A program made the position numbers and the translations under genes. DNA of 64,000 nucleotides, taken from assembly GCA_022843845.1 (NCBI GenBank), contig JALHMW010000008.1:62001-126000 (forward strand), read 5' to 3'. Of the stretch, positions 5,513 to 25,386 are shown piece by piece; the first letter of the stretch is position 1; every line of letters begins with the position of its first letter. This DNA is from Archangium sp. (GTDB taxonomy: Bacteria > Myxococcota > Myxococcia > Myxococcales > Myxococcaceae). The notes under the pieces are model-generated. The model worked only from the letters and a program-made list of their open reading frames with translations, did no database searches and had not been told where the DNA came from.

Positions 5513-5611
5513 CTGGATCGGCTGCAATTCCCCGCGAGGAAACGCTGCCGCGCATTGTGACTGCAGGGGTCGACTGTTAGAGCAAACGCTCTGCTTTCGG
5601 GAGCCCCCGCC

Positions 5612-8600
5612 GTGACTCGTCCCAGCCTCGCTGCGCATTCTCTTGGAGCCTTCACCCCCGGTGACTTCACGCCCCGGACGGGCCCGGACGCCTTCAAGCA
5701 ACTCCTCGCGCAGGTGGGCTCGCCGGTCAGCATCGTCGACGCCGGTGGCCGGCCCGCGATCGCTCGTGGCGGCGTGGCGTCGATCGGCCCGGTTCCGTCC
5801 GAAGGGCAGCTCCCGTTGCTCGGTCACGCGCCAGCGCTGACGCCCGATCGACTTGGTGATCGATCGTTCTGCGAGACGTACGGAATCGACGCGGCGCTCA
5901 TCGCTGGAGAGATGGCGAACGGCATCGCGTCGGAGGCGCTGGTCGAGGCCGTCGCGCGTGCCGGGTTTCTCGGAGTCTTCGGGGCTGCAGGGCTGTCACA
6001 CGCTCGCGTCACCGCGGCCATCGATCGACTGTCGAGCTCGCTGAAGGACACGCCGTGGGGCATCAACCTCATCCACTCGCCTGACGATCAGAAGCTCGAG
6101 GCGGCGCTGGTGGAGCTGTTCCTGTCGCGAGGGCTGCGCATCGTGAGCGCGTCGGCATACCTCGATCTCACCTTGCCGGTCGTGAAGTGGCGCGTGGCCG
6201 GAATTCACCGTGCGGCCGATGGCTCGATCGTCGTTCCGAATCGGCTGATCGCGAAGATCTCGCGCGTCGAGGTGGCCCGGAAGTTCCTCGAGCCCGCGCC
6301 GGAGCGCTTCCTCTCGGAGCTCGTTGCCTCAGGCGCCATCACCCGCGAACAGGCCGAGCTGGCCGCGCAGGTGCCGATGGCTGACGACGTGACGGCCGAG
6401 GCAGACTCGGGCGGGCACACCGACAATCGGCCGCTGGTGCTGTTGCTCCCCGCGATTCAGGCGCTGCGCGACGAGGTGTCGTCGGCTCGAGGGTACGCCG
6501 TTCGTCCGCGCGTCGGAGCTGCAGGTGGCATCGCGACGCCGGCGTCGGTCGCGTCAGCGTTCTCGATGGGCGCGGCGTACGTCGTGACGGGATCGATCAA
6601 CCAGGCGACGCGAGAAGCGGGCACCTCCGACGCCGTGCGCGAGCTGTTGGCGCAGGCGGGGCCGACCGACGTGGCGATGGCTCCCGCCGCCGACATGTTC
6701 GAGATGGGCGTGAAGGTGCAGGTGCTCACGCGCGGCACGCTCTTCGCGGTTCGCGCGCAGCGGCTGTACGAGCTGTACCGGGCGCACGAGAGCATCGCGG
6801 CGTTGCCTGTCGCCATTCGTGCGGAGCTCGAGTCGAAGTATTTTCGCACGACGCTCGAGGAGGCCTGGGCCGGCTGCGAGCGTTTCTTCTCCGAGCGAGA
6901 TCCCGCGCAGCTCGAGCGCGCGAAGAAGGACCCGAAGCACCAGCTCGCGTTGCTGTTCCGTGCGTACCTTGGTCAGGCCTCGCGCTGGGCGAACGATGGC
7001 GTGGCCGATCGCAAGCTCGACTTTCAGGTGTGGTGTGGCCCGGCGATGGGCGCGTTCAACGCGTGGGTGAAGGGCAGCCTGCTCGAGTCGTGGAGCGCGC
7101 GCGACGCGGTGACGATCTCGAAGAACCTGCTGGTCGGCGCGTGCGTGCTCACGCGAACTGCCGCGCTGCGGGCGCAAGGGGTCGTGCTCCCGGCGGACGT
7201 CGAGGCGTTCTCGCCGCGATCGATCGATGAGCTCTCGACGTTGACCCGTCGCGATGAACCCGTGCGGACGGCGACGCCGTCGGCGAAGACGCACACCACC
7301 GACGTCACCACCGGCCCTCGCCGCAAGGAGCCCATCGCCATCGTCGGCATCGGCGCGATGTTCCCGAAGGCCGAGAACGCGCAGGCGCTGTGGCGGCTGC
7401 TCCGCACGGGGCAGGACGCCGTCGGTGACGTGCCCGCGACGCACTTCTCGGTCGCCGACTACTTCGACGCCGATCAGAAGGCGCCGGACATGACGTACGC
7501 GAAGCGCGGCGCGTTCCTCTCGTCGACGCCCTTCGATCCGACCGAGTTCGGCATTCCGCCCTCCATCCTCGAGGCGACTGATACCTCGCAGTTGCTCTCA
7601 CTCGTCGTCGCGAAGATGGCGCTCGACGACGCGGGCTACCCTGACGATGGCGGGTGGGATCGTTCGCGCACCAGCGTGCTGCTCGGCGTGACCGGCACGC
7701 AGGAACTCGTGATCTCGCTCGGCGCGCGGCTCGGGCACCCGCACTGGAAGAAGGCGCTCAAGGACGCAGGCGTCGACGAGACCACCGCGAAGGACGTCGT
7801 CGATCGTATCGGCGCCTCGTACGTCGGCTGGCAGGAGAACTCGTTCCCCGGGCTGCTCGGCAACGTCGTCGCCGGCCGCATCGCGAACCGCTTCGATCTC
7901 GGCGGCACCAACTGTGTCGTCGACGCGGCGTGCGCGAGCTCGCTTGGCGCGCTCCACCTCGGCATCGCGGAGCTCGAGTCGGGCCGCACCGACATGGTGC
8001 TCACGGGAGGTGTCGACACGCTGAACGACATCTTCATGCACATGTGCTTCTCGAAGACGCCGGCGCTCTCGGCGACGGGAGACGCACGGCCGTTCTCGGA
8101 CAAGGCCGACGGCACGCTGCTCGGTGAAGGCATCGGCATGGTGGTGCTCAAGCGCCTGGCCGACGCGGAGCGTGATGGCGATCGCGTCTACGCGGTGATT
8201 CGCGGGCTCGGCACCTCGAGCGATGGACGCGCGAAGTCGATCTACGCGCCGCTGTCGAAGGGGCAGGCGAGGGCGCTCAAGGCGGCGTACCTGGACGCGA
8301 ACGTGCGGCCGCGCGACATCGCGCTGCTCGAGGCGCACGGCACGGGCACGAAGGCCGGAGACGCCGCCGAGTTCGAGGCGCTCCAGACCGTCTACCGCGA
8401 AGACTCGAGCGATCCGCAGTGGTGCGTGCTCGGCTCCGTGAAGTCGCAGGTGGGCCACACCAAGGCAGCTGCAGGTGCGGCGGGGCTCATCAAGGCAGCG
8501 CTCGCGCTGCATCACCGCGTGCTTCCGCCGACGCTGAAGGTCGATCGCCCGAACCCTTCGCTCCAGCTCGCCGAAAGTCCTTTCGCGATCTCAGGTCTGG

Positions 8601-11600
8601 CGCGCCCGTGGTTGCCGTCAGCGCGTGGCCCGCGGCTCGCTGGCGTGAGCTCGTTCGGGTTCGGCGGCAGCAACTTCCACACGGTGCTCGAAGAGTACGG
8701 CGATCGTCGGCTTGCTCCGGCGTGGGACGGCTCAGTCGAGCTCGTCGCGTTGTCGGCGAAGGATCTGCCGTCGCTGACCGCCCGGTTGCAGGAGGCGATG
8801 AAGGCCGAGGGTCTGGCGTCGTTCGCGGCAGCGTCACGCGCGTCGTTCCGCGCTGATGATGCGCAGCGCCTGGTGATCGTGGTCGAGGCCGGAAAGACGC
8901 TCTCGGCGGTCGTGACTCCGGTGCTCGCGAAGGTGCAGGCCGGTCAGCCGTTCCAGTCGCCCGAGGGCCTGGCGTACGGGGTCGGCGCTCCAGCAGGAAA
9001 GCTCGCGTTCGTGTTCCCGGGTCAGGGCTCGCAACACGTCGACATGCTGCGCGAGCTCGCGTGCGTGTTCCCGGAAGTCCTCGAGTCCGTCGCGGCGATG
9101 CCCGACGTGGCGGCGCGCGTGTACCCGCTGCCGACGTTCGATGACGCGGAGCAGAAGCGTCGTGAAGGTGAGCTGACGAAGACGAACGTCGCGCAGCCCG
9201 CGATCGGTGCCGTGAGCCGTGGCCTGCTCCAGGTGCTCGCGCGCTTCGGGGTGAAGCCTGCGCTCGTCGCAGGCCACTCTTACGGCGAGTTGGTCGCGCT
9301 CCATGCGGCCGGTGTGCTGTCGAGTGCCGTGTTCGAGGCGGCGTCACGTCGACGCGGTGAGCTGATGGCTGGCGATGGCTCCGATCGCGGAACGATGCTG
9401 GCCGTGCTCGCGCCGATCGCCGATGTCGAGAAGCTGCTGAGCGACGAGAAGCTCGAGCTGGTGCTCGCCAATCGGAATGGTCCCGCGCAGGCGGTGCTGT
9501 CGGGTTCTCGCGCCGAGATCGATCGTGCCGAAGCAGCCTGCAAGGCGAAGGGCCTGCGTGCCACGCGCTTGAACGTCGGAGCTGCGTTCCACAGCCCGCT
9601 CGTGTCAGGCGCCGCAGCGGACTTCGAGAAGTCGCTCTCGTCGATGGAGTTTGGCGCCGCGAGCATTCCCGTCGTCGCGAACACGACCGCCGAGCCGTAC
9701 CCGGCCGACGCCACGGCTGCGCGCTCGCTGCTCGCGAATCAGCTGGCGCGTCCCGTGCGGTTCGATGGCGTGATCGAGAAGCTCCACTCGCTCGGCGCGC
9801 GCACCTTCCTCGAGGTCGGTCCGAAGACGGCGCTGACGGGCATGGTGAAGGCGATCCTCGGAGAGCGCACTCACGCCGCGATGGCGATCGACGGTCAGAC
9901 TCGCCGTGGCGCGATGTTCGAGTTCGCGATGGTGCTGGCGCGACTCTCGGCCGAGGGCCACGCAGCACGTTTGACCGAGTGGCAGAAGGTCGCGCCGCCG
10001 CCTCGCTTGGTCGCGAAGCCTGCGCGCAAGCCGAAAATGGTCGTCCCGCTCACCGGAGCGAACTACCGCTCGCCGGTGGCGCCGAAGCCGGCCGTCGCGG
10101 CGAAGCCGCTCAGCGTGCCGAAGAATGGAGTCTCAGTGAACGGGAAGAACGGGACGAACGGCGTGCACACGAGGCAGGTGCCGGTGGCGACGCCGCAGCC
10201 GACGTCAGACGCGCTCAGGCTGTACCAGGAGAACTTGCGCGCGCTGCAGGCGTTGCAGGAACAGACCGCGAAGGTGCATCAGCTCTTCCTCGAAGGGCAG
10301 TTGGCAGCACAGCAGAACGTCGCTGCGCTGTTGACGGGACAGACGGTTGCGCCGAGGGCGTACGTGACGATGCCCGCGCCCGTCGCGATGCCTGCGATCG
10401 CAGCGCCGGTCGCGATTCCAGCGTTTGCTGCACCGGTCGCGAACCCTGCGCTCGTGGCGGCGATCCCAGTGCCTGTCGTGAGCGCTCCGTCAGTGGCTCC
10501 GGTTGCCGCTGCGCCTGTCGATGTCGTGCCGCTCCTGATGCAGGTCGTCTCGGAGGCGACCGGCTACCCTATCGAGACGCTCGCGCTCGGCATGGATCTC
10601 GAGGCCGACCTCGGCATCGACTCGATCAAGCGCGTGGAAATCCTCTCGATGTTGTCGCGTCGGGTTCCTGGCGCGCCCTCGGTGAACCCCGAGAAGCTCG
10701 GGAGCCTGCGCACGCTGCAACAGGTCGCGGAGTTCGTCCGTGGCGCTGCGGTCGCGCCCGTTGCCGTCGTTGCGCCCGTCGCCGCAGGCCCCGCTGTCGA
10801 CACGCGGGCAACGTTGCTCGCGACGGTCTCGGAGCTCACCGGCTACCCGGTCGAGACGCTCTCGCTCGAGATGGATCTGGAAGCCGATCTCGGTATCGAC
10901 TCCATCAAGCGCGTCGAGATCCTCTCGCTGCTCTCTCGACGCATTCCGGGCGCTCCGTCGGTGAACCCGGAGAAGTTGTCCGGCCTCAAGACGCTCGCGC
11001 AGGTGCACGCGTTCATCTCGGAGTCGGTGCCGTCGGTTTCAGCGCCTGTTCCCACGGTCGTTCAGCCGAAGCCCGTCGCCACACAGGTCGACTTCGGCGG
11101 CGTACTGCTCTCGACGGTCTCCGAGCTGACTGGGTACCCGGTGGAGACGTTGACCCTGTCGATGGATCTCGAGGCCGACCTCGGCATCGATTCGATCAAG
11201 CGCGTCGAGATTCTCTCGTTGTTGTCGCGCCGCATTCCGAACGCGCCGTCCGTCGATCCCGAGAAGCTGTCGGGCCTGCGCACGCTGGAGCAGGTGCTGC
11301 GTTTCGTCAGCGGCGCTCAAGCTGTCGTCCCTGTTCCGGCCGCGAAGCCGCAGCTTGTCGCCGCGCCCATCATCGTATCGTCGGAAGTCACGAGGCGCGT
11401 GGTCGTCCCCGTGCGAGCCAAGCCGTCGTCGGCTGCTCCCGTGAAGCTGGCGGCTGGTCGCGTCGTGATCTCGGGTGCCGATGAAGACCTCGGCAGAGCG
11501 CTCGTTCGCGTTTTCGAGCGAGTCGGTCAGCCCTGCGAACTGCTCTCGCCCGGCGCCGCGCTCTCCGGCTCCGTGGCTGGACTGGTCCTGACGGCCCCAC

Positions 11601-13684
11601 ACGGCTCCGCCTGGGACGAGAAGTCCGAGGTGTGGCTCAAGCACGCGCTCCTCGTTGCCCGCGCTTCAGCCTCAGCACTGCGCGCGAACCCCGGCTCCTT
11701 CGTCGTCGCCGTCAGCCGCCGCGATGGCGCGTTCGGCTTTGGGCGCTCGACGGTCGAGTCGCACCCGCTGTCTGGTGCGCTCACCGGTCTCGTGAAGACG
11801 CTCGCGCTCGAGTGGCCCGAGGTGAAGTGCCGTGCGCTCGACGTCTCGTCGCTCTGGGCTGTCGACGACGCGGCGCAGGCGATCGTTGACGAGCTCACCA
11901 ACGATGGCCCGTCGGAGCTCGGCCTCGGACCTGCTGGCCGCGTGACGCTCGCGCTGCGGGACGCGAAGGTGCACGGAGGTCTGCTGCCCTTGAAGTCGGG
12001 CGACGTCGTCGTCGTGACTGGCGGCGCGCGTGGGGTGACCGCCGATTGTGCGCGTGAACTCGCGAAGGCGTCAGGCGCGACGGTGCTGCTGCTGGGACGT
12101 TCTCCCGCGCCTGTGGTCGAGCCGACGTGGCTGGCCGCGGTGAAGGACGAAGCCTCGATCAAGCGCGTGCTGCTCGAGCAGGCTGGAGCTGCGCGCCCGA
12201 GCCCGAAGCAGCTCGCCGAGTCGTGCCGTCAGGTCTTCGCCTCCCGTGACATTCGCGCGACCCTCGAGGCCGCGCGGTCGGCTGGCGTGACGGCTGAGTA
12301 CCGGCAGGTCGACGTGCGTGACGTCGAGAGCGTCAAGGCCGTGCTCGCTGAGGCGCGGCAGACGCTCGGGCCCATTCGTGGCCTCGTGCACGGCGCAGGC
12401 GTGCTCCGTGACAAGCGCATCGAAGACAAACGAGACGACGACTTCGATCAGGTGCTCGACCCGAAGATCGCTGGGCTGCGCTCGGTGCTGGAGGCGACCC
12501 GCGCTGATGACCTCGCCGTCGTCGGGCTCTTCTCGTCGGTGAGTGGACGTTTTGGGCGCAAGGGCCAGACCGACTACGCGCTCGCGAATCAGGCGCTGGT
12601 GTCGATCGCACAAGCCGAGTCGATGAAGCGTCCTGCGTGCCGTGTGGTGGCGCTCGATTGGGGTCCTTGGGCTGGTGGCATGGTGACGCCTTCGCTCGAG
12701 GCGACGTTCAAGGCCGAGGGCATCTCGCTCATTCCGTTGTCGACCGGTGCGAAGGCCTTCGTCGATGAGCTGCGCGTGAGCCCGTCTGGACCGCGTGAGG
12801 TCGTCCTCGGTGCTGGTTTTGGTGAAGCAGCGGAAGCCGGCTGGGCGTTGGTGCACACCGAGCGCGTCGAGCGTTCGTGGCCGGTGCTCGCCGATCACCG
12901 CCTCAACGGGAAAGAGGTGCTCCCGCTGGCGATGACGCTCGAGTGGTTCGTGCAGGCCGCGCGTGCGTTGAGCGATGGCCTTGGCGCGATCGAGCTCGAA
13001 GACGTGCGCGTGCTGCGCGGCGTGACGTTCGATGGCGAGCGCGAGGAGCTGTCGGTCTGGGCTGGTCGCCCCGAGTCGCGTGGAGAGAAGACGGTCGTCT
13101 CGCTCGAGCTTCGAAACCGCAAAGACGTCGTGCACGTGCGTGGGCTCGCCGTGCTCCAGAGCGACGTCACCGCTGTCGAGCGGCTCAAGGGCACGTCGCT
13201 GCCGTCCTTCGTGACGCCGGTGAGCGAGCTCTACGCGAGTCAGCTCTTCCACGGCCCGAGCTTGTGGGCGCTGCGCTCCATCGAAGGTCTCGGTGAGGCC
13301 GGCATGGCGTTGACGCTCAAGACGCACGCGACCTCGGAGCGGTTGATGCCCGGCCCGACCCAGTCGTGGGCGCTCGACCCGCTGTGTGTCGACGGCGTCT
13401 TCCAGGCGATGATCGTGTGGGCTCGTGCGCAGCTGGGCGCTCCGTCGTTGCCGTCGAGGCTGGGGTCGGTTCGAGTGCTGCGGCCATTCTCGGCAGGTGA
13501 CGTGAAGGCGATCGTTCGGGTTCGCGCGATCGATGGCGCGATCGTCACCTCGGACATCGATCTCGTCGACGCCTCTGGCGCGCTCGCGGTGCAGCTCGAA
13601 GGCTACGAGTGCACGGTCAGCAACAGCCTCTCTCGCGCGTTCACTGCCGAGCCGCAGCCGCTCCACTCGACGCCGCTGGCATGA
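5612..13684 (+). CDS. PUFA synthase, ER-KS-MAT-ACP-ACP-ACP-KR-DH (PfaD-PfaA fusion)
   Basis: Giant protein of 2690 residues that elongates and modifies an acyl chain on its own carrier domains. Domains in order: a PfaD-type enoyl reductase of the nitropropane dioxygenase fold (about 1-545, flavin motif VGAAGGIATP near 300); ketosynthase (about 572-1010, Cys774, His909, His949); malonyl acyltransferase (about 1130-1430, GHSYGE with Ser1223); three acyl carrier domains, each with LGIDSIK and phosphopantetheine serines at 1671, 1764 and 1861; ketoreductase (glycine-rich TGGARG near 2138, Tyr2322); and a C-terminal PS-DH-like dehydratase (His2429). KS-MAT-ACPn-KR-DH is the PfaA order. PfaD is normally a separate protein, so the N-terminal reductase is a fusion. 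A GGGAG sits 8-9 bases before the GTG start. The stop overlaps the next start as ATGA. Confidence 0.92.
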   Translation: MTRPSLAAHSLGAFTPGDFTPRTGPDAFKQLLAQVGSPVSIVDAGGRPAIARGGVASIGPVPSEGQLPLLGHAPALTPDRLGDRSFCETYGIDAALIAGEMANGIASEALVEAVARAGFLGVFGAAGLSHARVTAAIDRLSSSLKDTPWGINLIHSPDDQKLEAALVELFLSRGLRIVSASAYLDLTLPVVKWRVAGIHRAADGSIVVPNRLIAKISRVEVARKFLEPAPERFLSELVASGAITREQAELAAQVPMADDVTAEADSGGHTDNRPLVLLLPAIQALRDEVSSARGYAVRPRVGAAGGIATPASVASAFSMGAAYVVTGSINQATREAGTSDAVRELLAQAGPTDVAMAPAADMFEMGVKVQVLTRGTLFAVRAQRLYELYRAHESIAALPVAIRAELESKYFRTTLEEAWAGCERFFSERDPAQLERAKKDPKHQLALLFRAYLGQASRWANDGVADRKLDFQVWCGPAMGAFNAWVKGSLLESWSARDAVTISKNLLVGACVLTRTAALRAQGVVLPADVEAFSPRSIDELSTLTRRDEPVRTATPSAKTHTTDVTTGPRRKEPIAIVGIGAMFPKAENAQALWRLLRTGQDAVGDVPATHFSVADYFDADQKAPDMTYAKRGAFLSSTPFDPTEFGIPPSILEATDTSQLLSLVVAKMALDDAGYPDDGGWDRSRTSVLLGVTGTQELVISLGARLGHPHWKKALKDAGVDETTAKDVVDRIGASYVGWQENSFPGLLGNVVAGRIANRFDLGGTNCVVDAACASSLGALHLGIAELESGRTDMVLTGGVDTLNDIFMHMCFSKTPALSATGDARPFSDKADGTLLGEGIGMVVLKRLADAERDGDRVYAVIRGLGTSSDGRAKSIYAPLSKGQARALKAAYLDANVRPRDIALLEAHGTGTKAGDAAEFEALQTVYREDSSDPQWCVLGSVKSQVGHTKAAAGAAGLIKAALALHHRVLPPTLKVDRPNPSLQLAESPFAISGLARPWLPSARGPRLAGVSSFGFGGSNFHTVLEEYGDRRLAPAWDGSVELVALSAKDLPSLTARLQEAMKAEGLASFAAASRASFRADDAQRLVIVVEAGKTLSAVVTPVLAKVQAGQPFQSPEGLAYGVGAPAGKLAFVFPGQGSQHVDMLRELACVFPEVLESVAAMPDVAARVYPLPTFDDAEQKRREGELTKTNVAQPAIGAVSRGLLQVLARFGVKPALVAGHSYGELVALHAAGVLSSAVFEAASRRRGELMAGDGSDRGTMLAVLAPIADVEKLLSDEKLELVLANRNGPAQAVLSGSRAEIDRAEAACKAKGLRATRLNVGAAFHSPLVSGAAADFEKSLSSMEFGAASIPVVANTTAEPYPADATAARSLLANQLARPVRFDGVIEKLHSLGARTFLEVGPKTALTGMVKAILGERTHAAMAIDGQTRRGAMFEFAMVLARLSAEGHAARLTEWQKVAPPPRLVAKPARKPKMVVPLTGANYRSPVAPKPAVAAKPLSVPKNGVSVNGKNGTNGVHTRQVPVATPQPTSDALRLYQENLRALQALQEQTAKVHQLFLEGQLAAQQNVAALLTGQTVAPRAYVTMPAPVAMPAIAAPVAIPAFAAPVANPALVAAIPVPVVSAPSVAPVAAAPVDVVPLLMQVVSEATGYPIETLALGMDLEADLGIDSIKRVEILSMLSRRVPGAPSVNPEKLGSLRTLQQVAEFVRGAAVAPVAVVAPVAAGPAVDTRATLLATVSELTGYPVETLSLEMDLEADLGIDSIKRVEILSLLSRRIPGAPSVNPEKLSGLKTLAQVHAFISESVPSVSAPVPTVVQPKPVATQVDFGGVLLSTVSELTGYPVETLTLSMDLEADLGIDSIKRVEILSLLSRRIPNAPSVDPEKLSGLRTLEQVLRFVSGAQAVVPVPAAKPQLVAAPIIVSSEVTRRVVVPVRAKPSSAAPVKLAAGRVVISGADEDLGRALVRVFERVGQPCELLSPGAALSGSVAGLVLTAPHGSAWDEKSEVWLKHALLVARASASALRANPGSFVVAVSRRDGAFGFGRSTVESHPLSGALTGLVKTLALEWPEVKCRALDVSSLWAVDDAAQAIVDELTNDGPSELGLGPAGRVTLALRDAKVHGGLLPLKSGDVVVVTGGARGVTADCARELAKASGATVLLLGRSPAPVVEPTWLAAVKDEASIKRVLLEQAGAARPSPKQLAESCRQVFASRDIRATLEAARSAGVTAEYRQVDVRDVESVKAVLAEARQTLGPIRGLVHGAGVLRDKRIEDKRDDDFDQVLDPKIAGLRSVLEATRADDLAVVGLFSSVSGRFGRKGQTDYALANQALVSIAQAESMKRPACRVVALDWGPWAGGMVTPSLEATFKAEGISLIPLSTGAKAFVDELRVSPSGPREVVLGAGFGEAAEAGWALVHTERVERSWPVLADHRLNGKEVLPLAMTLEWFVQAARALSDGLGAIELEDVRVLRGVTFDGEREELSVWAGRPESRGEKTVVSLELRNRKDVVHVRGLAVLQSDVTAVERLKGTSLPSFVTPVSELYASQLFHGPSLWALRSIEGLGEAGMALTLKTHATSERLMPGPTQSWALDPLCVDGVFQAMIVWARAQLGAPSLPSRLGSVRVLRPFSAGDVKAIVRVRAIDGAIVTSDIDLVDASGALAVQLEGYECTVSNSLSRAFTAEPQPLHSTPLA

Positions 13685-16600: not shown

Positions 16601-19600
16601 GTGAGTCTGCGGGCCTCTTTGCATCTCGTGCGTGGCGAGATCGCGACACGATGTTCCAGCGAACGCTCGAGAGCGCGCTCTTCCGAAGTCAGCTGACGAG
16701 CAATGGCTCGATCTTGCGCGCAGCCTGGGGCGACGACGCCGAGTGGGCGGTCGCGCTGGTGATGCGATCGAAGGACGAAATTCAAACCGCGCTCTCGGGC
16801 ACGGCGACGCTCCTGATCGTCAACGCTCCGGGCGAGTGCGTGATCGGCGGCCGGAAGGACGACGTACGCGCGGTCGTGGGTCGGCTCGGCGGCGCGGCTA
16901 TTTTCCTCGACGGCGTGCCGTTCGTTCATCTGCCGGCGATCGCTCCGGTCCAGGAAGACTACCGGGCGCTGCATCTGCTGCCGACGACGCCGCCTGCGGG
17001 CGTGCGCTTCTACAGCGCCGCGTGGGCGCGCTCGTACGAGGTGACGACGGAGAACTGCGCTGCGTCGATCGTCGCCAACGCGATGCACGGCTTCGACTTC
17101 ACGGCGCTGATCGAGCAGGCGTACGCCGATGGAGTCCGCGTCTTCGTCGAGCCCGGTCCCCAGGGCTCGTGCACGCGAATGATCGGTCGCATCCTCGGAA
17201 GCCGTCCGCATCTCGCGGTCGCGGCGTGCCAGCGCGGGCAGGATGGCTACGTATCGGTGTTGAACGCCGTCGCGAAGCTGGCCGAGGCCGGCCGCTCAGT
17301 CGATCTTTCGGCGCTCTACGCGAACTCGAAGACCATCGAGCCGTCGACGTCGACGAAGCGCATTCGGGTCATCGTGGGTGGTGCGCCCATCGATGCGCCG
17401 CCGCTCCCGGGTCGCCCTCCGCGCAAGCCCCTCGTCGAAGCGCCGGCCGTGATGATGGTGCCGACGCTCGTCCCCGCTCCAGAAGGCCGCGTCGCCGTGC
17501 AGGCGGCTCCCGTCATGACCTCCAGCTCACTCACCGATTTCCTCGCGACGCAGACCGCGACCGCGCGCGCACACGAGGTATTCCTTCAGGTCGCGGAGCA
17601 GTCCATCGCCCTGCAGACCCAGGTACTGATGCAGCTGCAGCGGTATGCGGTCGATGGCGCTGGCGGAGGCCCGGTCGTGGCTCCGAGTGTCAGGCTCGCG
17701 CCCCCGCCACGCTTCGATCGTGCGCTCTGCCTCGAGTTCGCGACCGGAAAGCTCTCGAAGGTCCTCGGCCCAGACTTCCTCGCCGTCGATTCGTTCCCGA
17801 CGCGGGTGCGCCTGCCCGCCGAGCCGCTGATGCTGGTCGACCGCATCGTCGAGGTGGAAGGCGAGATCGGCAGCCTCACGACCGGTCGCGTGGTGACGGA
17901 GCACGATGTGCACGCCGGAGCCTGGTACCTCGACGGCGGCCGCGTGCCGGTGTGCATCAGCGTCGAGGCGGGTCAGGCCGATCTCTTCCTCTCGGCGTAC
18001 CTCGGCATCGATCGCCAGACGAAGGGCGAACGCGTCTACCGGCTGCTCGACGCGAAGATCGTCTTCCATCGCGACCTGCCCACCGTCGGCGAGGTGATCC
18101 GCTACGACATTCGCATCGATCGGTTCGTCCGCCAGGGCGACACGTGGCTCTTCTTCTTCCGCTTCGACGGCACCATCGGCGGCGAGCCGTTCATCACGAT
18201 GTACGACGGCTGCGCGGGGTTCTTCAGCGCCGAGCAGCTGGACCAGGGCAAGGGCATCGTCCCCGAGGCGAAGCAGGTGAAGGCCTCGAAAGTGCCGTTC
18301 GTTCCTCCCGCGCCACACGGGACCGCGACGCTCTCGGAGGTGCAGATCGATGCGCTCAGGCGTGGCGAGCTTCGCGCCGCGTTCGACGTCGAGTTCCCTG
18401 TGAAGACGCTGGCGCCCGCGCTCCGTCTGCCGTCCGGCCGCATGCAGCTGGTCGATCGGATTCTCCAGCTCGACACGAAGGGCGGTGCGGCCGGCCTTGG
18501 GCTCGTCCTGGGCGAGCACGACGTCACGCCCGACGCCTGGTACCTGACTTGCCACTTCTCCGACGATCCCGTCATGCCCGGCACGCTGATGTACGAGTGC
18601 TGCCTGCACACGCTGCGAGTGCTGCTGCTGCGCATCGGGTGGATCGACGACGCCACCGACGTCGACCTGCACTACGCGCCGATCCTCGGGCAGCCGAGCC
18701 AGCTGAAGTGCCGCGGCCAGGTGCTCCCGTCGACGAAGAAGGTGCAGTACCGCGTCGAGATCGACGAGATCGGCTACGGCCCTGAGCCGTACGTGATCGC
18801 GACCGCCTCGATGTTCGCCGATGGGAAACACGTCGTGCAGATGGGCGGCATGTCGGTGCGCATCAAGGGCCTGACGAAGGAACGCCTGGACTCGATCTGG
18901 AGCGGCGCGCCGTCGACGCCCGTCTTCTCTCGCGAGCAGATCATCGAGTACTGTGAAGGCACGCCGTCGAAGTGCTTCGGGCCTGCGTACACGCCCTTCG
19001 ATTCCGGTGAACGACGCCTCGCCCGCCTGCCTCGCGATCCGTTCCGATTCATCGACCGCGTGACGGCCTGCGAGCCGAAGCCGCTCGTGATGGAGCCCGG
19101 TGGCTGGCTCACCTGTGAGTACGACGTTCCACCAGACGCCTGGTACTTCGGAGCGAATCGACAGAAGGCGATGCCGTTCTCGGTGCTCCTCGAGGCGGCG
19201 CTGCAGCCGTGCGGCTTCCTCGCGGCGCACGTTGGTTCGGCCCTGACGACGAACGACGTGCTCTCGTTCCGCAACCTCGACGGCTCGGCGACGGTGTCTC
19301 GTGAGGTGTTCGCCGACGTCGGGACGCTGACGATGCGCTCGAGGCTGACGAAGGTGTCACGCGCAGGCGGCATGCTCCTGCAGGAGTTCGACTTCGACGT
19401 GCACGATCGCGCCGGGCTCGTCTACCGCGGGCACACCGGCTTCGGGTTCTTCCCTCCCGCCGCGCTCGCGCAGCAGGTCGGTGTGCGTGGTGGCGCTCCG
19501 TGGCCGCTCGACGGCTCGCGACAGTTCACCTTGCCTCTGGAGTCCGCTGGAAGCAGCCGCGGTCTGGCGCTCCCCGCGAAGGCGTACGCGATGATCGAGA

Positions 19601-20019
19601 CGATCGACGCGCTGCAGCTCGACGGCGGCGCCCACGGCTTTGGCTTCGTGTCAGGCCACAAACGAGTCGACCCCTCCGAGTGGTTCTTCCAGGCGCACTT
19701 CTTCCAGGATCCCGTGATGCCGGGCTCGCTCGGGCTCGAGGCGCTCCAGCAGTTGATGCTGGTCTACGCGCGTGATCGGTTCGTGAACCTGCAGTCGACC
19801 CACCGGCTCCAGTCGATGGCGGTTGGCCACCCGCACGTCTGGCAGTACCGCGGGCAGGTCGTGCCGACGAACTCGCTCGTTCAGGTGCAAGCGCAGGTGA
19901 AGCAGGTGGTCGACGGCCCCTCGCCCTTGATCGTCTGTGACGGTCAGCTGCTCTGCGACGGCAAGGTCATCTACGCGATGAAGGACTTCGCCGTTCGCCT
20001 CGTGCCGGAGGTGGCGTGA
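13681..20019 (+). CDS. PUFA synthase, KS-CLF-AT and four hot-dog dehydratase units
   Basis: Protein of 2112 residues, the PfaC/Pfa3-like partner. The ATG at 13681 overlaps the previous stop as ATGA, so it is preferred over a GTG 72 bases earlier inside that gene. Domains: ketosynthase (about 1-430, Cys180, His314, His349); chain-length factor (about 438-830, where the catalytic cysteine position is Glu628); acyltransferase (about 889-1190, GYSLGES with Ser972); a Pro/Ala linker; then two tandem double hot-dog units of the FabA type (about 1344-1740 and 1748-2112). The second half of each has HF(S/F)xDPVMPG (His1625, His2006) and should be the active dehydratase-isomerase. The first halves lack that histidine motif. 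No AGPAT acyltransferase or thioesterase follows, so chain release is not encoded here. oleA starts at the stop codon. Confidence 0.92.
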   Translation: MTVRRAIAIVGLGGRFPGAASADALWNLVAEGRSMARDVPASRWPVDPSAVVSSAGGVDHARSRRACVLDVYEPELQGLELDAGALTELTKLTVDVAVQTFRSAANAKIDRARTAAIIANIALPTDGASTLAEQVFLTHLFGEQPAPLASNEAFPSVRPIGVMAKALGLGLGSYTLDAACASSLYALHLGCLELEAKRVDAVLAGGVSLPQQLYTQIGFTQLQALSPSGVCAPFTSQADGLVVGEGGGMVLLKRLDDAERDGDRVLAVIRGIGLSNDVGGSLLSPDSEGQLRAMRAAYEMAGWSPSEVQLVECHGTGTPRGDQVELDSLKALFSGAAPVIGSVKSNVGHLLTAAGMAGLTKVLGAISNKTLPPNANATSVLGSAAPLQVLERSRAWESSAPRRAAVSGFGFGGINAHVLLEEYAAGERVETEQPAAEPIAIVGLGIHVGALDSLERFSTTVFNGGTAIAQRPDTRWKTPSLRALEGAWIEALELPIGRFKVPPLELPSVLPQQLLMLEVAANAVEDAGGLGGGPHPRVGAVVGISLDLETTSFHLRWVLERHARQALAKAGLDVTEAELGAWLKMVGDAVSAPLDPQRVLGALGGIVTSRLARELSLGGPSFGVQAEEGSGLRALEVASRLLQRGEVDCMIVGAVELGGDVRRVLASEALHRSGLPSDGAAAVVLKRLSDAVRDGDSIAAVIRGFGAAQELDANLAVATAWREAGVTAPETIRQPSDLDLQLGVPGAAAGLVSIVESALSLRHRVRGQGKGARAAIWSAGSSPRRVGVTTHGFDGTALHVALEQGPSSSPDSAFDGSRAAGIFLVDASSREALIELVNGNRNASIDRLAATWFRRSPRASSAFVASTAGELLRQLSTPRPPTSPVEGDLAFVFPGSGSHFDGMGETLPLAFPRVLEQLGAEVFDFSRHLFPPIAEGPAGLAEIIVRQVTHGLVVHDALRLLGVSPQAYMGYSLGESAGLFASRAWRDRDTMFQRTLESALFRSQLTSNGSILRAAWGDDAEWAVALVMRSKDEIQTALSGTATLLIVNAPGECVIGGRKDDVRAVVGRLGGAAIFLDGVPFVHLPAIAPVQEDYRALHLLPTTPPAGVRFYSAAWARSYEVTTENCAASIVANAMHGFDFTALIEQAYADGVRVFVEPGPQGSCTRMIGRILGSRPHLAVAACQRGQDGYVSVLNAVAKLAEAGRSVDLSALYANSKTIEPSTSTKRIRVIVGGAPIDAPPLPGRPPRKPLVEAPAVMMVPTLVPAPEGRVAVQAAPVMTSSSLTDFLATQTATARAHEVFLQVAEQSIALQTQVLMQLQRYAVDGAGGGPVVAPSVRLAPPPRFDRALCLEFATGKLSKVLGPDFLAVDSFPTRVRLPAEPLMLVDRIVEVEGEIGSLTTGRVVTEHDVHAGAWYLDGGRVPVCISVEAGQADLFLSAYLGIDRQTKGERVYRLLDAKIVFHRDLPTVGEVIRYDIRIDRFVRQGDTWLFFFRFDGTIGGEPFITMYDGCAGFFSAEQLDQGKGIVPEAKQVKASKVPFVPPAPHGTATLSEVQIDALRRGELRAAFDVEFPVKTLAPALRLPSGRMQLVDRILQLDTKGGAAGLGLVLGEHDVTPDAWYLTCHFSDDPVMPGTLMYECCLHTLRVLLLRIGWIDDATDVDLHYAPILGQPSQLKCRGQVLPSTKKVQYRVEIDEIGYGPEPYVIATASMFADGKHVVQMGGMSVRIKGLTKERLDSIWSGAPSTPVFSREQIIEYCEGTPSKCFGPAYTPFDSGERRLARLPRDPFRFIDRVTACEPKPLVMEPGGWLTCEYDVPPDAWYFGANRQKAMPFSVLLEAALQPCGFLAAHVGSALTTNDVLSFRNLDGSATVSREVFADVGTLTMRSRLTKVSRAGGMLLQEFDFDVHDRAGLVYRGHTGFGFFPPAALAQQVGVRGGAPWPLDGSRQFTLPLESAGSSRGLALPAKAYAMIETIDALQLDGGAHGFGFVSGHKRVDPSEWFFQAHFFQDPVMPGSLGLEALQQLMLVYARDRFVNLQSTHRLQSMAVGHPHVWQYRGQVVPTNSLVQVQAQVKQVVDGPSPLIVCDGQLLCDGKVIYAMKDFAVRLVPEVA

Positions 20020-21059
20020 TGCGGTGGTCGAAGGTGAACGTCGAGGCCATCGCGTTCGAGCTCCCGACGGAGTCCGTCACGTCCGCGCAGCTCGACGCGC
20101 GCCTGGGGCCCATTCACGAGGCGCTGAAGATCTCTCCAGGGCAGCTCGAGGCGCTGACGGGCATTCGCGAGCGCCGGCAGTGGCCGCCGAACACCACGAT
20201 GTCATCGGTCGCGGCGCGGGCGGGCCAGAAGGCGCTCGAGCGGGCAGGGGTCTCGGTCGATGACGTCGGCGCGGTGATCTACGCGGGCGTGTGCCGAGAC
20301 AACCTCGAGCCGGCGACGGCCTGCGCGGTGGCCGCCGAGCTGGGGACGGGCGCGGAGACCCTGGTCTTCGACGTCTCCAACGCGTGCCTCGGCGTCCTCA
20401 ACGGCATGGTCGAGCTCGCCAATCGCATCGAGCTGGGCCAGCTGCGCGCGGGCCTGGTCGTCTCGGCGGAGAGCTCACGCGAGATCGTCGACGCGACCAT
20501 CGAGCGCATGAACCGCGAACCCACGATGGAGCGCTATCGCCTCGGGCTCGCCACCATGACGGGCGGCTCGGGCGCGGCGGCGGTGCTGCTGACGGCGTCT
20601 GACTTCTCGGCGAGCGAACACCGCTTGGTCGCGGGCGCGGCGCTGTCGGCTCCGAAACACCACCGCATCTGCCGCTGGGGCCCGTCATCCGGGCTGCTCG
20701 GCGAGCGCGCCAACGTGATGGAGACCGACGCGTCGCAGGTGCTCGAGCACGGCGTCGAGCTCGGCCGCGCCACGTGGGACCGGCTGCTGGCCAACTCGGG
20801 CTGGCGGCGTGACGAGATCGATCGCGTCATCTGCCATCAAGTCGGCTCGGCCAACCGCCGCGACATTCTCTCGACGATCGGCATCTCGGAGTCGAAGGAC
20901 TTCTCGACCTTCGAGCGTCTTGGAAACATGGGCACCGTCTCGTTGCCCATCACGGCCGCCATGGCCGACGACGCTGGTGTTCTTCAGGCCGGCCAGCGCA
21001 TCGCGTTGCTGGGCATCGGCAGCGGCCTCAACTGCCTCATGTTGGGAGTTCAGTGGTGA
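20019..21059 (+). CDS. oleA: OleA, head-to-head Claisen acyl condensing enzyme
   Basis: Protein of 346 residues of the thiolase fold (KAS III-like). OleA joins two long acyl thioesters carboxyl to alpha carbon and gives a 2-alkyl-3-ketoacid. The catalytic set is complete: Cys123 in NACLG, His273 in CHQVG, Asn303 in GNMG, plus Glu97 in NLEP. That Glu lies exactly 26 residues before the Cys and matches the OleA-specific base that FabH lacks. The ending GIGSGLNC is also OleA-like. The ATG overlaps the upstream stop by one base (TGATG); a GTG three bases earlier is possible. oleB, oleC and oleD follow without gaps, and their presence settles OleA over FabH. Confidence 0.92.
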   Translation: MRWSKVNVEAIAFELPTESVTSAQLDARLGPIHEALKISPGQLEALTGIRERRQWPPNTTMSSVAARAGQKALERAGVSVDDVGAVIYAGVCRDNLEPATACAVAAELGTGAETLVFDVSNACLGVLNGMVELANRIELGQLRAGLVVSAESSREIVDATIERMNREPTMERYRLGLATMTGGSGAAAVLLTASDFSASEHRLVAGAALSAPKHHRICRWGPSSGLLGERANVMETDASQVLEHGVELGRATWDRLLANSGWRRDEIDRVICHQVGSANRRDILSTIGISESKDFSTFERLGNMGTVSLPITAAMADDAGVLQAGQRIALLGIGSGLNCLMLGVQW

Positions 21060-21985
21060 ATGACATGACCTTCGACATCTCGCCGTACCGTGAGCTGTAT
21101 CCCTGGCAGGGCCGCTTCTTCGACACCGGCAACGGCGTTCGCATGCACTACCTCGACGAGGGGCAGGGCGAGACGCTGGTGATGCTGCACGGGAACCCGA
21201 CGTGGAGCTTCTACTGGCGCCACCTGGTGAGTGCGTTCGCGAAGCAGTACCGGGTGATCGTCCCCGATCACGTCGGCTGCGGCCTGTCGGACAAGCCGGG
21301 CGACGAGGCGTACCCGTACGTGCTCGAGCGCCGCGTGGCCGATCTCGACGCGCTGCTCAAGTCACTGGGCATCACGAAGAACGTGACGCTCGTGGTTCAT
21401 GACTGGGGCGGGATGATCGGCATGGCGTGGGCGACGAAGAACCCGTCGCTGGTGAAGCGCTTCGTCGTGCTCAACACCGCCGGCTTCGGGCTGCCGCAGG
21501 GTCGAAAGCTGCCGTGGCAGATCGGCGTGGTGCGCTACGCGCCGTTCTTCCCCGTGCCGGTGCGCGCCTTCAACGCCTTCTCACGCGGAGCCAACATGCT
21601 CTGCTCGACGAGGCCCGGCCGCATGACGCCGCTGGTGAAGCAGGCCTACCTCGCGCCGTACGACTCGTGGGCGAACCGCATCGCGGTGCAGCGCTTCGTC
21701 GAGGACATTCCGCTGGCGCCCGGAGATCGCAGCTGGCCCGTCGTGCAGGAGGTCTCGGACAAGCTCGCGCAGTTCGACTCGGTGCCCATGCTCATCTGCT
21801 GGGGCCGCAAGGACTTCGTGTTCGACGACGCCTTCCTCGCCGAGTGGCGCAGGCGCCTGCCGAGCGCCGAGGTTCATGTCTTCGAAGACGCAGGCCACTA
21901 CGTGCTCGAAGACGCGCATGAAGAGATCGTCGCGCTCATGAAGACCTTCCTCGCGAAGCACCCGCTTCCGGGCGCAGCGTCATGA
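21056..21985 (+). CDS. oleB: OleB, cis-beta-lactone decarboxylase (alpha/beta hydrolase)
   Basis: Protein of 309 residues with the haloalkane dehalogenase type of alpha/beta-hydrolase fold. An oxyanion motif HGNPTWSFYW comes first, then HDWGG with nucleophile Asp116, then DAGHY with His281. In the ole pathway the family member decarboxylates the beta-lactone made by OleC to the cis-alkene. Three starts are possible. GTG at 21056 overlaps the oleA stop as GTGA and sits 8 bases after GGAG, so it is preferred over GTG 21053 and ATG 21065. Alone it would be annotated as a haloalkane dehalogenase; the ole context decides the call. Confidence 0.9.
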   Translation: MNDMTFDISPYRELYPWQGRFFDTGNGVRMHYLDEGQGETLVMLHGNPTWSFYWRHLVSAFAKQYRVIVPDHVGCGLSDKPGDEAYPYVLERRVADLDALLKSLGITKNVTLVVHDWGGMIGMAWATKNPSLVKRFVVLNTAGFGLPQGRKLPWQIGVVRYAPFFPVPVRAFNAFSRGANMLCSTRPGRMTPLVKQAYLAPYDSWANRIAVQRFVEDIPLAPGDRSWPVVQEVSDKLAQFDSVPMLICWGRKDFVFDDAFLAEWRRRLPSAEVHVFEDAGHYVLEDAHEEIVALMKTFLAKHPLPGAAS

Positions 21986-23634
21986 GCGCACCAAAGACCA
22001 GCATCAACATCGCCTCGCATCTGCCCGCGATGGCCCGCCTGGACCCGTCGCGTCCTGCGATCATCGCGCCTGACGGCAAGGGAGGCTGGCAGACGATGAC
22101 GTTTGGCGAGCTCGACGCGATGAGCGATCGAATCGCCCACGGCCTCGCAGCGATCGGCGTCCAGCGAGGCTCGCGCACCGTCATCCTCGCGCCGCCAAGC
22201 TTCGAGTTCTTCCCGCTCGTGTTCGCCGTCTTCAAGGTCGGCGCGGTGATGGTGGCGATCGACCCCGGCATCGGCCGCAAGGCGTTGCTGTCGTGCCTCG
22301 ACGAGGTGAAGGCCGACGCGTTCATCGGTATTCCCGCGGCGCACGTCGCGCGCATTCTGTTCCCAAAGCCGTTCCGCACCGTGAAGGCCAACGTCACCGT
22401 CGGCCGACGTCTGTTCTGGGGTGGGCACTCGCTCGACGAGGTGAAGCGCCTGGGCAAGGACGAGCCGTTTCCCATGGTGGAGCCGTCGACGAACGAGACG
22501 GCCGCGATCCTCTTCACCTCGGGGTCGACGGGCATTCCCAAAGGCGCGGTCTACTCGCACGAGATCTTCGACGCTCAGGTGCGGATGATTCGCGACGCGT
22601 ACGGCATTCAGCCGGGAGAGATCGATCTGCCGACGTTCCCGCTGTTCGCGCTCTTCGATCCTGCGCTGGGCATGACGGCGGTGCTCCCCGACATGGACTT
22701 CCGGTTTCCGGCGAAGGCCGACCCAAAGAAGCTGATCGAGGCGATGACGACGCATCGCTGCACGTCGATGTTCGGCTCTCCGGCGCTCATCGACAACCTT
22801 GGCCGCTACGGCGTCGCGAACGGAATCAAGCTTCCGGGCCTCAAGCGCGTGTTGTCGGCAGGCGCTCCGGTTCGGGTCGACGTGCTCGAGAACCTGACGA
22901 AGATGCTGGGCGTCGACGCGCAGATCTTCACGCCTTTCGGCGCCACCGAGTCGCTGCCAGTCGCGAGCATCGGGAGCAAAGAGGTGCTGGCCGACACGGG
23001 CCGGCTCGCGATGCAGGGGAAGGGCGTGTGCGTCGGGAAGCCAGCGGCCGACGTGATGGTGCGCATCATCGAGATCTCCGACGAGCCGATTGCGTCGTGG
23101 GCCGATGCCCGTGAGGTGCCACAGGGGACGATTGGCGAGATCACCGTCGCCGGCACCGTCGTCACCCGCGAGTACTGGGCCCGGCCGGAGCAGACGAAGC
23201 TCGCGAAGATTCAGGACGGCGAGCGGATCGTCCACCGCATGGGCGACGTCGGGTACTTCGACGACTCGGGCCGCTTGTGGATGTGTGGGCGCAAGGGCCA
23301 TCGCGTGGTGACGACGGCTGGCACGTTGTTCACGACGCCGGTCGAAGAGGTCCTCAACCAGCACCCAGCCGTTCGGCGTTCAGCGCTCGTGGCCGTGGGC
23401 TCGAAGGGCTCGCAGGTGCCGGTCGTGCTGCTCGAGCGCGAGCCGATGTCCGGCGCGGCCGACGCCCAACTGGTGCAGGAGATCAAGGAGCTCGCGTCAC
23501 GACACGAGACGACGAAGACGATCAACCATGTGCACGTCTTCCAGGGGGAGTTCCCCGTCGATCGCCGGCACAACGCGAAGATCGAGCGGGAGAAGCTCTC
23601 GGCCTGGGCGACGCAGAAGGGGTTCGGTCGATGA
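21982..23634 (+). CDS. oleC: OleC, beta-lactone synthetase (AMP-ligase fold)
   Basis: Protein of 550 residues of the adenylate-forming superfamily. The ATP loop FTSGSTGIPKG lies at about 178-188 and the C-terminal lysine in HNAKIER is Lys533. OleC uses ATP to cyclise the 2-alkyl-3-hydroxyacid made by OleD into a beta-lactone; it was long annotated as an acyl-CoA synthetase. The start overlaps the oleB stop as ATGA and the stop overlaps the oleD start, giving tight translational coupling. Confidence 0.92.
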   Translation: MSAPKTSINIASHLPAMARLDPSRPAIIAPDGKGGWQTMTFGELDAMSDRIAHGLAAIGVQRGSRTVILAPPSFEFFPLVFAVFKVGAVMVAIDPGIGRKALLSCLDEVKADAFIGIPAAHVARILFPKPFRTVKANVTVGRRLFWGGHSLDEVKRLGKDEPFPMVEPSTNETAAILFTSGSTGIPKGAVYSHEIFDAQVRMIRDAYGIQPGEIDLPTFPLFALFDPALGMTAVLPDMDFRFPAKADPKKLIEAMTTHRCTSMFGSPALIDNLGRYGVANGIKLPGLKRVLSAGAPVRVDVLENLTKMLGVDAQIFTPFGATESLPVASIGSKEVLADTGRLAMQGKGVCVGKPAADVMVRIIEISDEPIASWADAREVPQGTIGEITVAGTVVTREYWARPEQTKLAKIQDGERIVHRMGDVGYFDDSGRLWMCGRKGHRVVTTAGTLFTTPVEEVLNQHPAVRRSALVAVGSKGSQVPVVLLEREPMSGAADAQLVQEIKELASRHETTKTINHVHVFQGEFPVDRRHNAKIEREKLSAWATQKGFGR

Positions 23635-24617
23635 AGACGATGGTGACGGGTGGGGGCGGCTTCCTCGGCAGCAACCTCGTGAAGGCGCTCCTCGCGCGCG
23701 GAGACTCGGTGCGCGTGCTTGCGCGTGGCGATTACCCCGAGCTGCGTGCCCTCGGCGCCGAGACGATTCGTGGCGATATCACCGACGCCGCGACGACCGC
23801 GAAGGCCTGCGAAGGCGTCGACGTCGTCTTCCACACCGCCGCGAAGGCAGGCGGGTGGGGCGACCCGAAAGAGTACGAGGCGATCAACGTCGGCGGCACG
23901 GACAACGTCATCGCCGGCTGCGTCTCGGCGAAGGTGCCAGTGCTGATTCACACCAGCTCTCCGAGCATCGTGCACGGCCACGAAGACATCGAAGGCGCGA
24001 ACGAGTCGCTCCCGTACGCGGCGCACTTCACGGCCCACTACCCACGCACGAAGGCCATCGCGGAGCAGCACGCGCTCGCGGCGTCGAGCGCCACGCTCGA
24101 GGTGATCTCGCTGCGGCCGCACTTCATCTGGGGGCCGGGCGATCGGCACCTGCTCCCGCGGTTGATCGCACGCGCAAAGACGGGTCGGCTGCGGCAGATC
24201 GGCTCGCGAGATCCGAAGTGCGACACCATCTACATCGACAACTGCGTCGACGCGCACCTGCTGGCGGCTGAGAAGCTGCTGGCTGGCGCTGGCCTCGGCG
24301 GGAAGCCGTACTTCGTGAGTGACGACGCGCCGATCGGCGTGTGGACCATGGCCAATCGAATGCTCGCGTGCGCGGGGCAGGGGCCGGTCGGGCGTCCGAT
24401 TCCCGCAGGGCTCGCCTACGCCGTCGGCGCGATGATGGAGGGCACGTACTGGCTCTTCGGCGTCGAGAAGGAGCCGCTCATCACCCGCTTCGGGGCCAGC
24501 GAGCTCTCGTACGCGCAGTGGTTCGACATCAGCGCCGCGAAGCGAGATCTCGGCTACTCGCCGAAGGTGACGATCGACGAAGGCTTGAAGCGCCTCGCGG
24601 AGTCGCTGAAGGCCTGA
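23631..24617 (+). CDS. oleD: OleD, NAD(P)H-dependent 2-alkyl-3-ketoacid reductase
   Basis: Protein of 328 residues, extended short-chain dehydrogenase of the 3-beta-hydroxysteroid dehydrogenase type. The nucleotide-binding loop TGGGGFLGS is at residues 6-14 and the catalytic YPRTK comes after a TSSPS serine motif. OleD reduces the OleA product to the hydroxyacid used by OleC. The ATG at 23631 overlaps the oleC stop as ATGA; open frame upstream of it lies inside oleC and is ignored. It is the last gene of the operon, and its stop is 3 bases from the stop of the convergent phosphopantetheinyl transferase gene. Confidence 0.92.
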   Translation: MKTMVTGGGGFLGSNLVKALLARGDSVRVLARGDYPELRALGAETIRGDITDAATTAKACEGVDVVFHTAAKAGGWGDPKEYEAINVGGTDNVIAGCVSAKVPVLIHTSSPSIVHGHEDIEGANESLPYAAHFTAHYPRTKAIAEQHALAASSATLEVISLRPHFIWGPGDRHLLPRLIARAKTGRLRQIGSRDPKCDTIYIDNCVDAHLLAAEKLLAGAGLGGKPYFVSDDAPIGVWTMANRMLACAGQGPVGRPIPAGLAYAVGAMMEGTYWLFGVEKEPLITRFGASELSYAQWFDISAAKRDLGYSPKVTIDEGLKRLAESLKA

Positions 24618-24620
24618 AGC

Positions 24621-25304
24621 TCAGCGCGCCCGCACCATCGCGACGACGCGATGTTCATCGAGCCACAGCAACTCTGCCTCCAGGTCGAAGCGCGGGTCCG
24701 TCGGTTCCAGGAACAGCTCGATCGCCACTGACTCACGGGAGCGCACGTCGACCCGCGCCGCCTGAAACCCGAAGAACCGTCCCAGCCGCGGGGCGAGCGC
24801 CTTGTAGATGGCCTCCTTCACCGCGAAGCGGAGCATCACGTTCGGCCAGCGCTCGGCCTCGGGCAGCGCCTGCACCTCGACGAGCTCCTCCGGCCGGCAG
24901 ACGCGCGTCATGATCGCCGACCGATCGCGCGCGCCGCCTTCGAGATCGATGCCCACCAGGCCGGCCTCACTCGGCGCGACGAGCGCGAGCGCGAGATCCT
25001 CCTTGTGGGTGAGCGAGACCATCACCCCGGGCGGACACAACGGCGCGCGGGCGGAGTCGGCCAGGAGCGCCCACGACGACACCTCGACCCCCAGGCTCGC
25101 CGCCGCTGTTCTCCATGCGAGGCGGCCGCCTGCCAGCTCGATCTGCCGCCGCCCCCGCTCCGAGCGAGCCAGGGCACGCTCCTTCGGGTGCAATGCCGCG
25201 AGAACGCTCTCGTGCACACGCTCCAGTCCAGCAGGCAGAGGCACCGCCGCCAGCACCCCGAAGCGCACCGTCTTCACCCACGCTGGCACGAACGGTGTCG
25301 TCAC
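24621..25304 (-). CDS. Sfp-type 4'-phosphopantetheinyl transferase (PfaE-like)
   Basis: Protein of 227 residues from the GTG at 25304. It transfers phosphopantetheine from CoA to carrier-domain serines. Family motifs are present: SLTHKED near 97-103, VGIDLE at 117-122 (metal ligands Asp120 and Glu122) and FAVKEAIYKA at 160-169 (Lys163, Glu164). The frame stays open for 74 more codons upstream, but those would overlap the divergent ATPase gene and would exceed the family's usual length. Its position next to a synthase with three carrier domains suggests that it activates them, the job of PfaE. It is convergent with oleD, so it has its own promoter, probably in 25305-25386. Confidence 0.87.
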   Translation of the reverse strand: MTTPFVPAWVKTVRFGVLAAVPLPAGLERVHESVLAALHPKERALARSERGRRQIELAGGRLAWRTAAASLGVEVSSWALLADSARAPLCPPGVMVSLTHKEDLALALVAPSEAGLVGIDLEGGARDRSAIMTRVCRPEELVEVQALPEAERWPNVMLRFAVKEAIYKALAPRLGRFFGFQAARVDVRSRESVAIELFLEPTDPRFDLEAELLWLDEHRVVAMVRAR

Positions 25305-25386
25305 GAGATGGTCATCGTACCCGTCGTGCAGCCCGCCGGTCTGCCTGAGAATTCTCACGGATTCGACGGCGCCTTCGGTAGGTTCG

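Follow-up and report, generated by a model that had tools for sequence, protein, structure and literature searches.

In the passages that bear on this work, Shulse and Allen (2011; PMC3098273) describe ole genes as 'often linked' with pfa-like clusters, and a 2016 review (PMC4882568) describes Geobacter bemidjiensis as carrying pfaD-A-B-C-oleABCD-pfaE in tandem and as making C31:9; in the scheme of Shulse and Allen this is a Type I secondary lipid synthase. The first-pass annotation of the DNA studied here had left open whether such a linkage was already described; in view of these two sources, any claim to its novelty has to be given up. The relevant parts of PMC6463001 report that EPA and hydrocarbon are made together in Shewanella and that in Photobacterium profundum SS9 the pfa and ole operons are adjacent, with no hydrocarbon found in that strain. 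A literature search, made mostly at title level and with subscription journals outside it, yielded no title on a myxobacterial pfa-ole operon.

The window, that is, the whole stretch of DNA that was analysed, comprises 64,000 nucleotides (G000:C8:62001-126000) of an Archangium sp. genome of 4.95 Mb (54 contigs, 86% complete). It has the tandem pfa-ole layout, with pfaDA, pfaBC, oleA, oleB, oleC and oleD following one another on the plus strand from 5612 to 24617 (frames 5612-13684, 13681-20019, 20016 or 20019-21059, 21056-21985, 21982-23634 and 23631-24617). All five junctions are stop/start overlaps of 4 bases each, or of 1 base at oleA should translation begin at the ATG (20019), and both frames and coordinates bear out the overlaps of 1-4 bases that the first-pass annotation had read at every junction from the megasynthases to oleABCD. 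The overlaps suggest that this operon, which spans about 19 kb and includes two megasynthases, is co-transcribed. A sigma-70 scan of 5300-25250 gave 0 promoter-like sites with 0.6 expected by chance, an uninformative count. Upstream of the operon lies a 280-aa frame (4440-5282, plus strand) with a C-terminal half that is hydrophobic by eye; it has no Pfam or NCBIfam match and is conserved in G003 (88%) and G001 (56%).

A phosphopantetheinyl transferase (PPTase) had been placed at the end of the unit. The gene (24621-25526, alternative start 25304) does adjoin oleD, but it lies on the minus strand, convergent and outside the overlapping run, its stop codon separated by 3 bases from that of oleD. 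It scored 52.6 bits against the NCBIfam PptT model, below the cut-off of 365, and may fill the role of PfaE. Divergent from it are two ArsA-like ATPases of the BagA/BagB kind (25387-27434, plus strand), whose place is kept in several relatives. Set beside the G. bemidjiensis cluster as the review describes it, the locus is alike in gene order, in the pfaBC fusion, in having OleABCD directly downstream and in the adjoining PPTase, and differs in the fusion of pfaD to pfaA, the overlap at all junctions, the convergent PPTase and the myxobacterial host; the likeness is drawn from the published description, and the sequences compared were those of Geomonas and Geobacter relatives. The pathway logic is also that of Shewanella and P. 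profundum SS9, in which, unlike in the window, the operons are separate (adjacent in SS9) and a PfaT thioesterase has been reported.

The first gene (5612-13684, plus strand; Pfam, NCBIfam and motifs by eye) encodes a PfaD-PfaA fusion of 2690 aa with the domain order ER-KS-MAT-ACP-ACP-ACP-KR-DH (ER, residues 77-516; KS, 573-1066; MAT, 1133-1422; KR, 2133-2354; PS-DH, 2414-2670). It matched TIGR02814 for PfaD (611 bits) and TIGR02813 for PfaA (1505 bits), both above cut-off, and the enoyl reductase (PfaD) domain fused at its N-terminus lies at 5840-7159 (plus strand; Pfam, NCBIfam). By eye, the MAT has GHSYG, each of the three ACPs LGIDS, the KR its Tyr and Asn, the PS-DH HxxxGxxxxP and the KS, like that of the second megasynthase, Cys-His-His. 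ER and KS share one uninterrupted frame in 11 of the 145 genomes of the order, the window's own included, and the fusion recurs in G384 elsewhere in the phylum; the ER is a separate frame in G121, G122, G037 and G377 of the phylum and, outside Myxococcota, in 13 of 14 named genomes, the contig of the 14th ending first. Frame lengths had pointed to a fusion in Eth-SRB2 as well, but this was rejected because the frames proved separate on inspection. Within the pfa-ole cluster type, the fusion was met only in Myxococcota among the genomes examined. As such it is not novel, since the portions consulted of PMC13291983 report fused pfaDA in hybrid clusters of Ottowia, Aquimarina and Flavobacterium, which are like the window in having pfaD and pfaA in one gene and differ by their neighbouring PKS-NRPS genes; oleA, olefin and hydrocarbon have 0 occurrences in the text of that paper.

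The second gene (13681-20019, plus strand; Pfam, NCBIfam and motifs by eye) encodes a PfaBC-type megasynthase of 2112 aa, KS-CLF-AT-DH-DH. Its four hot-dogs were read as pseudo, active, pseudo and active, the second and fourth bearing by eye the FabA-type histidine; the CLF is without the Cys and the AT has GYSLG, again by eye. We take the KS, MAT, ACP, KR, PS-DH, CLF and AT motifs to have their active-site meaning here, and those read by eye in both megasynthases are all intact. The domains are those of a PUFA synthase, namely PfaA (KS-MAT-tandem ACP-KR), the PfaD ER and a fused PfaBC (KS-CLF-AT-DH2), with the ER fused rather than separate. Against the NCBIfam PfaB model, the AT scored 55 bits, below the cut-off of 144, and neither Pfam nor NCBIfam gave a match of the second megasynthase to a glycerolipid acyltransferase family. 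The passages on PfaB in PMC12895367 describe it as the terminal acyltransferase and the Tyr before the AT serine as conserved in PfaB and needed in Moritella PfaB. The PfaB-type acyltransferase of the window looks intact. A PfaBC-like protein of a Phycisphaerae genome (L275:8262-13913) has KS, CLF and DH matches and no AT match.

OleA (20016-21059, from GTG 20016 or ATG 20019, plus strand; Pfam, NCBIfam, alignment and AlphaFold model) matched NF006720/PRK09258, named 3-oxoacyl-ACP synthase III by NCBI, with 468 bits (cut-off 285). The catalytic Glu, Cys, His and Asn are all present (E98, C124, H274 and N304); the Glu/Cys spacing is that of E117 and C143 in the structure titles of X. campestris OleA, and the His lies 8 residues further on than X. 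campestris H285, an offset that fits 9 inserted residues and 1 missing. The AlphaFold model of the protein (36 sequences) has a mean pLDDT of 93, and the best PDB matches are X. campestris OleA. Xanthomonas OleA (PDB 3row and 4kti; 3fk5 from X. oryzae) is 34-35% identical to the window OleA and has the fold and catalytic residues in common with it, whereas the X. oryzae homologue lacks the LCxWG motif and has a hairpin 9 residues shorter.

OleB (21056-21985, GTG start 21056 or 21053, plus strand; Pfam, NCBIfam) has a haloalkane-dehalogenase fold with HDWGG present; its NCBIfam matches were haloalkane dehalogenase models only, below cut-off, and no OleB model matched. OleC (21982-23634, plus strand; NCBIfam), of the olefin beta-lactone synthetase type, scored 658 bits against NF045786, below the cut-off of 900, and 714 bits against NF006754, above the cut-off of 478. 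OleD (23631-24617, plus strand; NCBIfam), of the 2-alkyl-3-oxoalkanoate reductase type, scored 378 bits against NF042423 and 376 bits against NF042422, both below the cut-off of 580; the equivalog cut-offs for OleC and OleD are a naming threshold, not a definition, and the models are named for Xanthomonas/Shewanella types. Homologues of OleB, OleC and OleD follow OleA in that order here and in relatives. Two genomes of the genus, G002 and G004, carry a second, divergent pair of OleA and OleD between oleD and the PPTase (L019:13397-15330 and L018:1295-3228; 35-36% and 33% identity), with the four OleA catalytic residues kept and no second OleB or OleC in these two stretches.

The seven nearest named loci, all metagenome-assembled records, have an OleA 69-97% identical to that of the window. 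The gene order recurs in the six further genomes of the genus, within the limits of their contigs. It is also seen in additional genera of the family (G021, G007, G008 and, partly, G014), and G040 shows it in a second family of the order. All measurable junctions in five other loci of the genus fall between -4 and +8 bases, and oleA starts -4 to 0 bases from the synthase stop in the window and in five other genus loci, G005 not among them; gaps are wider in G007, where about 1 kb precedes oleA, and in G040, where they reach 98 bases. Among the 80 best named OleA loci, 63 have a same-strand PfaC-type dehydratase no more than 3 kb upstream; in 44 of the 80, OleB, C and D follow downstream as well, many of the loci being truncated. 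The dehydratase is lacking there in 17 loci: 9 are gammaproteobacterial (Shewanella, Psychromonas and Colwellia), 4 are Planctomycetota loci in which OleA stands alone, and of the remaining 4, three break off less than 1.3 kb upstream of OleA. PfaA-KS distances go with OleA distances, with a Mantel r of 0.91 over 21 loci and of 0.90 over 16 when the order is represented by a single row; in neither set did any of 5000 permutations reach the observed value, and shared species descent can explain part of this. The locus is real, conserved and apparently intact, a putative operon of an already described type with its ER fused.

The hairpin in OleA spans residues 219-237 in GTG numbering (20670-20726, plus strand; alignment and AlphaFold model) and carries ICRWG as its mark. 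The longer hairpin, with CRWG, first stood out when the window OleA was aligned with unlinked OleA proteins from its order. AlphaFold places two strands there, before a long helix (residues 218-222 and 232-236 in ATG numbering; mean pLDDT 75 in the block holding the turn), at a place that in FabH-type enzymes borders the carrier entrance. With its LCxWG-type motif (ICRWG) and long hairpin, the window OleA falls within the PfaA-associated clade as we define it, and a mark of this type occurs in all 80 named OleA loci, Shewanella and Psychromonas included. Twelve further positions set the LCxWG clade apart from other OleA, mostly of planctomycetes, among them A106, 8 residues after the catalytic Glu, G183, before the GSG motif, and T307, 3 after the catalytic Asn. 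The planctomycete OleA of L188-L199 have a hairpin region 24-52 residues longer than that of the window. The words loop and insertion are absent from the one OleA survey searched for them (PMC7064751).

The company that this OleA keeps was counted in three groups. Each has members in common with the discovery set, a set selected by OleA and not by PfaA: in Planctomycetia this is G070, in Desulfuromonadia 11 genomes at the least, with more to judge from their positions, and in Myxococcota most of those with the motif. The motif was read in all 123 of the 148 Planctomycetia genomes that have OleA; with PfaA counted at 52% identity or more, a cut chosen after a gap in the match list had been seen, PfaA was present beside 58 LCxWG OleA and absent beside 3 (in one of these genomes a more remote pfa-type KS was seen), and present beside 1 of 62 other OleA and absent beside 61 (3 with a distant KS). 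In the 146 genomes of Desulfuromonadia, the class of G060, with OleA counted at 50% identity or more, all 96 genomes with OleA have PfaA; of the 50 without OleA, 2 have PfaA only and 48 neither. The motif was found in 30 of 30 OleA read out of these 96. Myxococcota (195 genomes, 34 with OleA) gave PfaA in 12 of 14 with the motif, the exceptions being G008, in which the PfaBC gene is present, and G018, and in 11 of 20 with another OleA; G046 has neither motif nor PfaA. These 11 led us to reject a two-way rule by which LCxWG OleA would occur if and only if PfaA does. In G018, the oleA frame is interrupted (L026:14429-15470) with LCRWG present, and the genome gave no PfaA match; decay or loss of both genes would fit this, and so might an assembly error. 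A gammaproteobacterial sample, with OleA at E 1e-35 in 4 of 185 genomes, was too thin to count.

The first-pass annotation had also proposed tabulating OleA near PfaA-type genes. PfaA and OleA share a contig in 66 of the 96 Desulfuromonadia genomes, and in 63 of these the two genes are co-oriented, with starts separated by 12-23 kb; in 30 of the 96 they are on different contigs, and in 3 (G608, G610 and G685) more than 100 kb apart. PfaA and LCxWG OleA are on one contig in 34 of the 58 Planctomycetia genomes, near each other and on one strand in 31.

An OleA tree of 185 rows was built with the hairpin columns excluded; of the 80 named loci it took in 29, those for which a genome-wide PfaA search had been made, and it left out G018 (interrupted oleA) and L084 (same genome as G070). 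PfaA is present in 99 of 103 rows with the motif, leaving four LCxWG rows without it, and in 12 of 82 rows without the motif. The motif changes only twice on the tree, and PfaA eleven times, so that the association reflects the history of one clade and not many independent events; an independent-pairs test on the tree found 2 pairs only, too few to give it any power. On this tree, LCxWG OleA is one clade over several phyla that keeps company with PfaA. The mark is a correlation, not yet a mechanism.

As to the product, we consider it probable that the locus is a Type I tandem pfa-ole operon that makes a long polyunsaturated alkene, C31:9-like. In the Ole pathway, OleA acts first, followed by OleD, OleC and OleB. 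The two megasynthases would build a polyunsaturated acyl chain iteratively on the tandem ACPs, which the convergent PPTase would activate; head-to-head condensation of two chains by OleA would give a 2-alkyl-3-oxo acid for OleD to reduce, OleC would then close the beta-lactone, and loss of CO2 through OleB would produce a long internal polyene, for which C31:9 is the likeliest type. We infer substrate, chain length and product alike.

A less likely reading is that the synthase mainly makes PUFA for membrane lipids, with the Ole genes drawing off a side branch, the situation in Shewanella. The PfaB-type AT with GYSLG, PfaB being described as the terminal acyltransferase (PMC12895367), is consistent with it, as is a Shewanella OleA bearing the same mark in a genus reported to make EPA beside hydrocarbon; however, the close setting of oleA at the synthase stop in the loci measured, the lack of a glycerolipid acyltransferase family match in the second megasynthase and the C31:9 reported with the G. 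bemidjiensis cluster argue against it. Because the AT looks intact, free or esterified PUFA may also be made, and SS9 indicates that hydrocarbon does not always follow where pfa and ole genes are neighbours. The earlier expectation of an alkene rather than EPA or DHA in phospholipid is thus upheld in part: the unit is kept in relatives, a similar cluster goes with C31:9 in the review's account and the OleA clade goes with PfaA, but the GYSLG of the AT and the mark of the Shewanella OleA leave PUFA as a main product some weight. A long polyunsaturated alkene is a reasonable reading of the locus.

We regard as quite improbable a chain other than a methylene-interrupted polyene (a more saturated one, or one retaining hydroxyls), which OleABCD would turn into another kind of hydrocarbon. 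Pfa-like synthases make other lipids too, as stated in the part of PMC3098273 concerned, and the fused ER could change ER use per cycle; yet the PUFA-synthase domains look intact, including both FabA-type DH and the PS-DH, and the KS shares 56-68% identity with the best PfaA KS in the genomes compared from outside the Gammaproteobacteria. Slightly less probable still is a long-chain ketone or beta-lactone as end product, since none of OleB, OleC and OleD is missing or out of frame and OleB keeps its HDWGG, even though OleA alone with pfa genes in E. coli gave a 31:8 ketone in the account of PMC6463001.

With the alkene as the favoured product, a pathway to long polyunsaturated hydrocarbons that has been little studied outside marine gammaproteobacteria would extend to Myxococcales in compact form. 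The most useful addition is the OleA mark, a cheap and falsifiable marker for an OleA drawing on a PUFA synthase, a dependence for which the genetic tests in the literature, as far as the sources consulted go, have used Shewanella genes only. We tentatively propose, while leaning somewhat towards doubt, that LCxWG OleA might be a distinct subfamily taking chains straight from the PUFA synthase, in which the hairpin together with A106, G183 and T307 might let it dock the tandem ACPs or hold the polyene. If this is true, LCxWG would predict producers of polyunsaturated hydrocarbons from sequence alone, even where pfa and ole genes are unlinked.
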